NCBI GenBank assembly: GCA_945865375.1
Contig: CAMBEJ010000056.1
Coordinates: 1-32,466, forward strand
Source of the DNA: Akkermansia muciniphila
Lineage (GTDB): Bacteria > Verrucomicrobiota > Verrucomicrobiia > Limisphaerales > F1-80-MAGS106
Length of the DNA: 32,466 nt
Reading direction: 5' to 3'
Below are positions 4,811-32,466 of this stretch, one piece after another. The notes under the pieces were generated by a model, which saw nothing but the letters and a program-made list of their open reading frames with translations, was not told the origin of the DNA and did not search any database. Position 1 is the stretch's first letter; each line of letters begins with the position of its first letter. A program made the translations under genes and the position numbers.

Positions 4811-4818
4811 TTGAACAT
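4811..4818. repeat. Left target-site duplication of the copy 1 element
   Basis: TTGAACAT, identical to 5029-5036. Removing the element and one duplication restores a continuous sequence ...GTGGAGC-TTGAACAT-TTACCCC.... The complement of this target contains an ATG (ATGTTCAAG on the minus strand). Confidence 0.85.
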
Positions 4819-4819
4819 C

Positions 4820-5028
4820 GGGTGCAACTCACGTTATCCGAGGTCGCCTCCCCTGACGCGTGTATCCCGCCGCTTCACCACGCTGAAGTGACACCACGGA
4901 TGAGGAAAGGGAGCTGAGATGGGTACTTTATCCGTGCTATCCGTGTTATCCGTGGTTAGGAACTCTTCCCATTCTGCGGTAGGTATTGTCCTCCGAACGA
5001 CACCTCCCGGAAACCGTGAGTTGCACCC
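4820..5028. mobile_element. MITE-like element, copy 1, with terminal inverted repeats and target-site duplication
   Basis: A 209-base non-autonomous element. The ends are inverted: GGGTGCAACTCACG at 4820-4833 and its complement at the right end (5015-5028), with imperfect pairing continuing inward. It is flanked directly by TTGAACAT at 4811-4818 and TTGAACAT at 5029-5036, an eight-base target-site duplication, or nine bases with one mismatch (C versus T). Inside are three head-to-tail nine-base units TATCCGTGN at 4929-4955. The right 73 bases (4956-5028) recur inverted at 32249-32321 with three differences. No transposase is encoded, so it would need one in trans. Confidence 0.85.
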
Positions 5029-5036
5029 TTGAACAT
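5029..5036. repeat. Right target-site duplication of the copy 1 element
   Basis: TTGAACAT, the second copy of the duplicated target. It abuts the terminal GTTGCACCC of the element. On the minus strand it supplies an ATG preceded by AGGGGTAA, which opens a 26-codon reading frame into the element (4956-5036). Confidence 0.85.
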
Positions 5037-5095
5037 TTACCCCTAATTTTCAGGATCGACTTCCGCCTTGGTATCCAGGAGCCTCACCGGCGTTT

Positions 5096-26636: not shown

Positions 26637-28025
26637 ATGAAGACGTCGGCGGAAACCCAAAGGATGTCCCGGCTTACTGGCTGGTTGGAACGGGCGCCTG
26701 CGCCCGTTTTCGTGGCCGTGGCCGTGGCCGCCGCGTTCACAACGTACTTCGCGATGTACGCGTTTCGCAAGCCGTTCGCTTCGGCTAAATTCGAGGGTCA
26801 ATTTTTTTTAGGCACGCAAGTGGCATTAAAGACGGCTATCGTCATCAGCCAAATCATCGGCTATGCCCTCTCGAAGTACATCGGAATTAAAATCTGCTCG
26901 GAGGTAACCCGCGAAAGGCGGGCTGCGACGTTGATCGGGCTTGTCGCGTGGTCTCAAGCTGCCCTGGTGGTCTACGGATTGGTGCCGGGTGATTGGAAGG
27001 TTGTCGCCATTTTCTTCAATGGCCTCCCGCTCGGCATGATCTGGGGATTGGTGGTGTGGTATCTGGAGGGTCGGCGAACCTCGGAGCTTTTACTTGCGGG
27101 GCTGAGCCTCTCCTACATCATGGCCAGCGGCGTGGTGAAGGATTTTGGTCGAGCACTGATGGAGGGCGGCGTGGCGGAGTGGTGGAAGGCGGTCCCGCTC
27201 GCGGGTCCACTCATTGGAGAAAGTCTCGGAAAAGTCAGCGAAGCCTGGATGCCTGCTGTGGCTGGGTTTCATTTCATGCCAGTGCTGCTCGTCTCGGTCT
27301 GGCTGCTCAACCAACTGCCCCGGCCCAATGCCGGTGACGTGGAGGCCCGAGCCGGGCGCGAACCCATGAAAGGCGCGGATCGGCTGGCGTTCGTAAAAAA
27401 GTTCGCCCCAGGCTTGGCGATGTTGTGCGTGGGATATTTTTTCCTGACCGCCTACCGCGACTTCCGCGACAACTATCAGGTGGAAATCTTTGACGGCCTG
27501 GGTTACCCCTACAAGGAGAACAAGACCATCATCTCGCGGGCAGAGAGCATCGTGACCTTCGGCGTGATGGGCATTCTCGCGCTCCTGAACGCGGTGAGAG
27601 ACAACCGGCGCGGGCTGTTGTGCGCGCTCGGAATCATGACCGGCGGCGTGTTGTTGCTCGGCGTGTCCACGGCCTTGTTGCAAGCCAGGATGATCAGCGG
27701 TTTCTGGTGGATGACGCTCACGGGTCTCGGATCCTACCTCGCCTATGTCCCGTTCGGTTCCGTACTGTTCGATCGATTGATCGCCTCGACTCGCGTCGCG
27801 GGAACCGCCGTGTTCGCGATTTACCTCGCGGATGCGATCGGTTATACCGGATCCGTGGGTGTGCAGCTCTATAAAGATCTCGCGGCCGGTTCGGTATCGC
27901 GGCTGGGGTTTTTTACCGGGTTCACTTGGTTTATGTGTGTTCTGGGCGCGGTGTGCTTGCTGGGCAGCACTCTCTATTTCGCCCGCTGCACACGCGTCCC
28001 TCATTTCAAACCGAACTCAGCATAG
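26637..28025 (+). CDS. DUF5690/MFS-like multispanning membrane transporter
   Basis: A 462-residue inner-membrane protein with about twelve hydrophobic segments, resembling the DUF5690 family of MFS-like transporters. Visible marks are TTYFAMYAFRKPFASAKFEG after TM1 (an MFS phosphate-ester-antiporter-like RKP motif), VISQIIGYALSKYIGIKICSE, a charged central loop with PMKGADRLAFVKKFAPGL, YFFLTAYRDFRDNYQVEIF, and a C-terminal half with FWWMTLTGLGSYLAYVPFGSVLFDRL and FAIYLADAIGYTGSVG. The substrate is unknown. It starts with MKTSAETQRMSRLTG; the Met at residue 10 is an alternative. The 3' end overlaps the convergent aldolase gene by 25 bases. Family naming is from memory of motifs, not from a search. 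Confidence 0.82.
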   Translation: MKTSAETQRMSRLTGWLERAPAPVFVAVAVAAAFTTYFAMYAFRKPFASAKFEGQFFLGTQVALKTAIVISQIIGYALSKYIGIKICSEVTRERRAATLIGLVAWSQAALVVYGLVPGDWKVVAIFFNGLPLGMIWGLVVWYLEGRRTSELLLAGLSLSYIMASGVVKDFGRALMEGGVAEWWKAVPLAGPLIGESLGKVSEAWMPAVAGFHFMPVLLVSVWLLNQLPRPNAGDVEARAGREPMKGADRLAFVKKFAPGLAMLCVGYFFLTAYRDFRDNYQVEIFDGLGYPYKENKTIISRAESIVTFGVMGILALLNAVRDNRRGLLCALGIMTGGVLLLGVSTALLQARMISGFWWMTLTGLGSYLAYVPFGSVLFDRLIASTRVAGTAVFAIYLADAIGYTGSVGVQLYKDLAAGSVSRLGFFTGFTWFMCVLGAVCLLGSTLYFARCTRVPHFKPNSA

Positions 28026-32168: not shown

Positions 32169-32248
32169 GGTTCGGAAGAATCACTCAGCCCCATCATCTT
32201 GCGTCCGTCGCTCGACCGCGTCAAGAAATGCGTCACTCTCCCAAGAAG

Positions 32249-32321
32249 GGGTGCAACTCACGGTTTCCGGGAGTTGTCGTTCGGAGGACAATACTTACCG
32301 CAAAATGGGAAGAGTTCCTAA
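32249..32321. mobile_element. MITE-like element, copy 2, partial and interrupted at 32321/32322
   Basis: Starts with the same terminal GGGTGCAACTCACGG as copy 1 and matches 4956-5028 in inverted orientation, 70 of 73 bases. Homology stops exactly at 32321, where a group II intron end begins. In copy 1 the equivalent point (4955/4956) is uninterrupted and adjoins the third TATCCGTGN unit. The rest of copy 2 should lie beyond the window. Confidence 0.85.
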
Positions 32322-32466
32322 GTAGAGTAGGCGAAGCGGACGGATTGAGAGGCACAGGCCAATGACCGTCTCGCTTCGCCCCTCATCGAACCGGACAGGC
32401 GGTTTTCCCGCATCCGGCTCTCCGAGGGCCATTCATCGCATTGCTTATTGTTCACCGATTCGATTT
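32322..32466 (-). ncRNA. 3' end of a group II intron: domains V and VI
   Basis: On the minus strand, 32420 down to 32388 folds as a domain V hairpin: GAGCCGGA pairs with TCCGGTTC, GCGG with CCGC across a GAAA-containing loop, and the AGC catalytic-triad start is present. Below it, 32387 to 32322 forms domain VI: GGCGAAGCG pairs with CGCTTCGCC, and at its base GAG pairs with CTC, leaving one unpaired A (complement of 32328) seven bases from the 3' end, the expected branch point. The molecule ends in AC, matching the AY rule. The 5' domains and any reverse transcriptase gene lie past the window edge. Intron subclass cannot be assigned. Confidence 0.85.

Follow-up and report, generated by a model that had tools for sequence, protein, structure and literature searches.

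The analysed window, a stretch of 32,466 nucleotides that makes up the entire contig C56 of a draft Verrucomicrobia genome (5.79 Mb, 266 contigs), ends 145 bases into a group II intron. On the sequence comparisons described below, this feature is very probably one copy of a mobile intron that retrohomes into a palindromic core found in two unrelated MITE families. The window stops inside the intron because the intron is repeated in the genome, so that the assembly breaks at it.

The intron 3' end occupies 32322–32466 on the minus strand and represents the last 145 of 1976 nt. A covariance-model search over this segment matched 32322–32422 on the minus strand to group II intron domains V–VI (Rfam RF00029) at 49.2 bits (E 6.3e-07), and it folds with an energy of -57.1 kcal/mol, where shuffled sequences average -34.3 (z -6.6). 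The domain V helix was placed at 32388–32420 (minus strand) by the RF00029 match and the fold, and domain VI at 32325–32384 (minus strand) by the fold. Domain VI contains one bulged branch-point A at position -7 (32328) and the intron terminates in AC, the AY 3' end of a group II intron. The original prediction, that the second copy of a repeat is broken at precisely such an intron end, is therefore upheld by both model and fold. Positions 32452–32466 (minus strand) are the end of the reading frame for the intron-encoded reverse transcriptase/maturase, its last four codons plus the stop, as located by offset from contig C180, where the frame ends at position 143. Over the whole of 32322–32466, the other full-depth intron copies in the genome have the same 3' end, with 100% identity. 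A TAA stop codon had also been pointed out beside the junction, at 32319–32321; it is the TTA that opens the right half of the MITE and is without meaning, since it lies inside a non-coding repeat. Elsewhere in the window, 26637–28025 encodes a protein of the DUF5690 family (422.9 bits), for which no function is known.

The interrupted repeat, referred to as MITE-1, has the characteristics of a MITE, being short and non-coding with GGGTGCAACTCACG termini, and is flanked by duplications matching at at least 8 of 9 bp in 16 of 22 copies. An unoccupied copy (copy 1) is located at 4820–5028 on the plus strand, with terminal inverted repeats GGGTGCAACTCACG...CGTGAGTTGCACCC and target-site duplications TTGAACATC on the left (4811–4819, plus strand; 8/9 identical to the right flank) and TTGAACATT on the right (5029–5037, plus strand; by flank comparison). 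About 33 near-full-length matches to copy 1 were found in the genome, most of them at 85% identity or above. The right half of copy 2, which forms the 3' exon of the intron, lies at 32249–32321 on the minus strand and is identical to 4956–5028 at 70 of 73 positions. The junction at 32321/32322 aligns with 4955/4956 of copy 1, directly after the third ATCCGTG unit, as expected if copy 1 is the empty version of the same site. The empty IBS1 target ATCCGTGG occupies 4948–4955 (plus strand), and its insertion point at 4955/4956 is the one used in all occupied copies. A motif match identified a second, inverted empty target in the same MITE (ATCCGTGG on the minus strand, 4894–4901). The equivalent of this inverted site is occupied in other MITE-1 copies (3' exon TGTCACTTCAGC); copy 1 is without the adjacent second unit there, owing to a 9-bp gap relative to the window copy.

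The predicted 5' exon, the other half of the interrupted MITE, was found on contig C207, where it resembles copy 1 and ends in ATCCGTGTCATCCGTGG at the intron 5' end. Its outer flank is CTTCTTGGG, a perfect match to the 9-bp target-site duplication at 32240–32248 (minus strand) in the window. Joined together, the two halves form a MITE of 218 bp; its alignment with copy 1 shows one 9-bp gap and, beyond that, a few substitutions. Exact 9-bp duplications pair the split halves of C224 with C145, C231 with C82 and C22 with C113 in the same manner, and the halves on C110 and C248 are paired by a duplication matching at 8 of 9 positions. A total of 123 MITE-1 terminal arms in the genome corresponds to about 60 copies, of which roughly 17 carry the intron.

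A complete intron copy of 1976 nt (GTGCG...CTAC) was identified on contig C180, so that with both MITE halves also in hand the nesting of a group II intron in a MITE-like element is substantiated, as are the domains I–IV and reverse transcriptase expected upstream of the window's intron end. The copy starts with GTGCG at C180:1988, in agreement with the GUGYG 5' end of group II introns, and its domains I–IV match RF02005 at 52.2 bits (gathering threshold 49). The open reading frame begins with an ATG at intron nt 524 and encodes a 439-aa reverse transcriptase/maturase that scores 357.8 bits against TIGR04416 (cut-off 300) and contains the RVT_1 and GIIM (maturase) domains. No endonuclease domain was detected in this protein by domain profile search. 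Its relatives in named genomes are mostly from Verrucomicrobia. C180 carries MITE-2 sequence on the 5' side and just 12 nt of MITE-1 at the 3' end, and this mismatch is most likely a collapsed repeat. One representative intron body was assembled, and the identity of the other bodies is assumed from their ends; in the draft assembly, no single contig holds the full intron plus both halves of one MITE.

Junctions were gathered by searches and from fetched regions of the same genome. All 15 intact 5' junctions read ATCCGTGG/GTGCG (the slash marks the junction) and lie inside MITE-1, in either orientation, or inside MITE-2. All 16 of the 3' junctions with host flank likewise fall inside MITE-1 or MITE-2 and have T at +1, the position with which an EBS3 would pair in group IIB-type recognition, so that each of the 31 visible junctions sits at ATCCGTGG/T within a MITE. 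Three insertion contexts are represented, namely MITE-1 forward, MITE-1 reverse and MITE-2. The MITE-2 termini, CACTACAGCGACACTT, differ from those of MITE-1, and MITE-2 has TA at each end as opposed to the 9-bp duplications of MITE-1.

The target of the intron is thus a palindromic ATCCGTG core common to several repeat families and not one MITE, which is why a second, unrelated MITE family has been hit as well. Homing to a single MITE had been proposed; the spread into MITE copies was observed, but over a wider range than anticipated, covering two unrelated families through the ATCCGTG core. Similarly, the idea that every MITE copy is a landing site is supported by the many occupied copies and underestimates the number of sites, since the palindromic core offers one on each strand of every element, that is, two per element. 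For the tandem target ATCCGTGNNATCCGTGG, 170 occurrences were counted in the genome, compared to 0 for a reversed-pattern control. Extrapolation from shuffles of the window predicts about 280 isolated ATCCGTGG sites in the genome, and none of the 31 junctions in this genome was found at one; the 8-mer ATCCGTGG alone is therefore probably insufficient for insertion. The ATCCGTG palindrome was also observed as a stand-alone small repeat, TTAACCACGGAT...ATCCGTGGTTAA, outside both MITE families (loci L252, L254, L258 and L259). Across the order, the motif was present in 100 of 293 genomes, with 0 control hits. Neither a published name for the palindrome nor a description of the repeat sequence itself was found in the literature searched.

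Recognition of this target is very probably by base pairing with the intron. EBS1, CCACGGAT at intron nt 201–208, is complementary to ATCCGTGG at 8 of 8 positions, and eight related introns of the order, each with a different 5' exon of its own, show covariation between EBS1 and that exon. The reverse complement of EBS1 and the corresponding exon read, among others, ATTCGGGT and GTTCGGGT, GTCTGCGG and ATCTGCGG, CTCCTTGG and GTCCTTGG, and ATCTGTGT and CTCTGTGT. In a position-blind scan of the intron 5' region against exon positions -8 to -1, performed with nine introns picked for a recognisable EBS1 loop, a single place emerged, the CCACGGAT loop. This loop pairs with its own exon at 6.96 of 8 positions on average versus 4.25 for the exons of other introns, an excess of 2.71 where the next best place reached 0.75. 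When exons were permuted among the nine pairs, the observed 63 of 72 matches (shuffled mean 41.8) were reached in 2 of 200,000 shuffles. An earlier covariation scan with 18 sequences gave no signal, the distant introns in it probably being misaligned. EBS2, at nt 174–178, pairs with exon positions -14 to -10 in one register only among seven introns (p about 0.001, uncorrected for the 27 registers scanned). In the present intron, EBS2 forms 3 of 5 pairs, and these involve the GTG in the repeat unit before the target unit; EBS1 and EBS2 thus read consecutive copies of one motif. A conserved GGTTCACGACC loop was rejected as EBS2 on the grounds that it is constant while the exon varies. The nearest relative, an intron of the same genus with an 82% identical reverse transcriptase, has EBS1 ACCTAAAC and a different kind of site.

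An EBS2–IBS2 pairing in addition to EBS1 is exon recognition of the group IIB type. A group IIC-type intron, reading the hairpin of the palindromic core and not its sequence, is an unlikely alternative that would account for an insertion point at the outer base of the inverted repeat CCACGGAT...ATCCGTGG and for a reverse transcriptase that lacks an endonuclease domain and among solved relatives scores slightly higher against 7uim (187.5 bits, the best match) than against 6me0 (169.7) and 6ar1 (166.6). Group IIC introns at terminators and attC sites resemble the present intron in inserting beside palindromic DNA with an endonuclease-less reverse transcriptase. They differ from it in that a group IIC intron has no EBS2, whereas here an EBS2 was located, EBS1 pairs over 7–8 bp, and specificity is by sequence rather than by hairpin. 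The 8-bp EBS1 and the EBS2 both covary with the exons in relatives, which themselves insert at varied sequences fitting their own EBS1 and in which no common hairpin was seen by eye. Furthermore, group IIC introns have been reported at terminator and attC motifs and not at homing sites of 20–35 bp (PMC4424553).

Distinct duplications place the number of intron sites at about 22, with a firm minimum of 16, giving about 16–22 near-identical intron copies in the genome. The visible 5' ends of these copies are 100% identical while the host MITE copies differ from one another by many substitutions, which suggests a recent burst of an intron that may be active or was very recently active. Single capture of the intron by one MITE, followed by passive spread as transposing or recombining cargo, would also place it in MITEs with target-site duplications, and this explanation is very improbable. 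Two unrelated MITE families hold the intron, with different termini and duplications (9 bp versus TA), and within MITE-1 it is present in both orientations. The contrast between invariant intron ends and variable hosts is likewise not expected of cargo, the intron-bearing MITEs were confirmed to comprise diverse internal variants, and a 2-kb insert in a MITE of ~210 bp would be an unusual transposition substrate. That an assembly artefact at contig ends falsely joined intron to MITEs, as might be thought from the many contigs ending within the intron and the seemingly chimeric 3' end of C180, can be set aside almost entirely given one exact breakpoint in 31 separate junctions, 9-bp duplications that pair MITE halves on independent contigs, and a decayed intron copy on contig C155, whose assembly is complete and takes in both ends of the MITE as well as a 9-bp duplication without mismatch.

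The C155 copy (minus strand, 1500–1467) retains the first 34 nt of the present intron, joined directly to the MITE with the loss of about 20 bp of MITE sequence, and its duplication reads GCAACGATC. A second degenerate element, at C12:58706–59916, is an older, diverged relative of the intron that is truncated at the 5' end; its domain V is interrupted by an insertion, and a MITE-2-like terminus lies downstream. An apparently identical intron was encountered in G166, a genome assigned to a different family. Horizontal transfer was rejected as its origin, and the G166 intron is most likely binning contamination, because G166:C15 and contig C135 of the present genome overlap at 100% identity for at least 1.6 kb, and the duplication on G166:C75 pairs with contig C98. 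At G000:C189:8700–8909, a MITE-1 copy was observed that has two right arms and flanks that do not match; these flanks correspond to the duplications beside two intron-bearing halves (C156 and G166:C468, the latter in the contaminating bin). The arrangement would result from recombination of MITEs that carry the intron or from a jump by the assembler.

By analogy with RmInt1 and from published reviews (PMC8914252, PMC4424553), the favoured retrohoming reading would proceed by reverse splicing followed by cDNA synthesis. Spliced intron RNA together with the endonuclease-less reverse transcriptase would recognise the core ATCCGTG-NN-ATCCGTGG/T, carried by the two unrelated MITE families, through 8 bp between EBS1 and ATCCGTGG and about 3 bp with EBS2. 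The intron would then reverse splice at the GG/T junction and be copied into DNA, with priming presumably at the replication fork, as the absence of an endonuclease domain implies. The recent burst may have followed once EBS1 came to match the repeat.

Several elements of this model are already known, namely EBS–IBS homing, retrohoming onto repeats, EBS drift, homing to insertion sequences and occasional REP insertion. RmInt1, a group II intron of Sinorhizobium meliloti, homes into the insertion sequence ISRm2011-2. Its reverse transcriptase/maturase is without an endonuclease domain (PMC8914252), and in this respect, as in homing into another mobile element, the present intron resembles it. 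The host of RmInt1 is an insertion sequence, whereas the target here is an 8–9 bp core in unrelated non-coding MITEs that offers landing sites on both strands. The group II introns of Thermosynechococcus elongatus (families F1–F6, 28 copies) show a comparable copy number and EBS drift to new sets of sites (PMC2882425). In that organism six EBS families are found at different sites and some introns lie inside each other (PMC2882425), while in the present genome a single EBS1 fits a motif of which about 170 copies already exist. Group II introns inside short palindromic repeats are also found in Pseudomonas putida KT2440, with 2 of 9 copies in REP elements as tabulated in PMC1525189; this compares with 31 of 31 junctions within the repeat here, together with a pairing basis backed by covariation. 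In the literature searched, no description of introns in MITEs was found, nor of an intron guide matching a motif of unrelated MITE families with sites on both strands, and an intron fitted to the core motif of a MITE thus appears undescribed there.

A related intron in another genome (G319:C179) occupies the precise end of a different phased repeat, CCTTTGCGGTCCTTGG, and its EBS1 matches at 7 of 8 positions. From this relative and the presence of ATCCGTG in 100 of 293 genomes, it is conceivable, if rather doubtful, that the lineage specialises in short phased palindromic repeats widespread in Verrucomicrobia and retunes EBS1 between repeat units. If so, such repeats would act as renewable safe landing sites that govern intron copy number. 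Relatives with other EBS1 sequences, for which fewer copies were found, provide a natural comparison for testing how guide sequence, abundance of the repeat and intron copy number are linked. The intron is in addition a candidate programmable targeting tool for a phylum with few such tools. A guide that fits a dispersed motif, largely harmless to hit, offers a site-specific retroelement a route out of low copy number, and the intron is very probably a clear natural case in which one mobile element spreads by using others as its targets.
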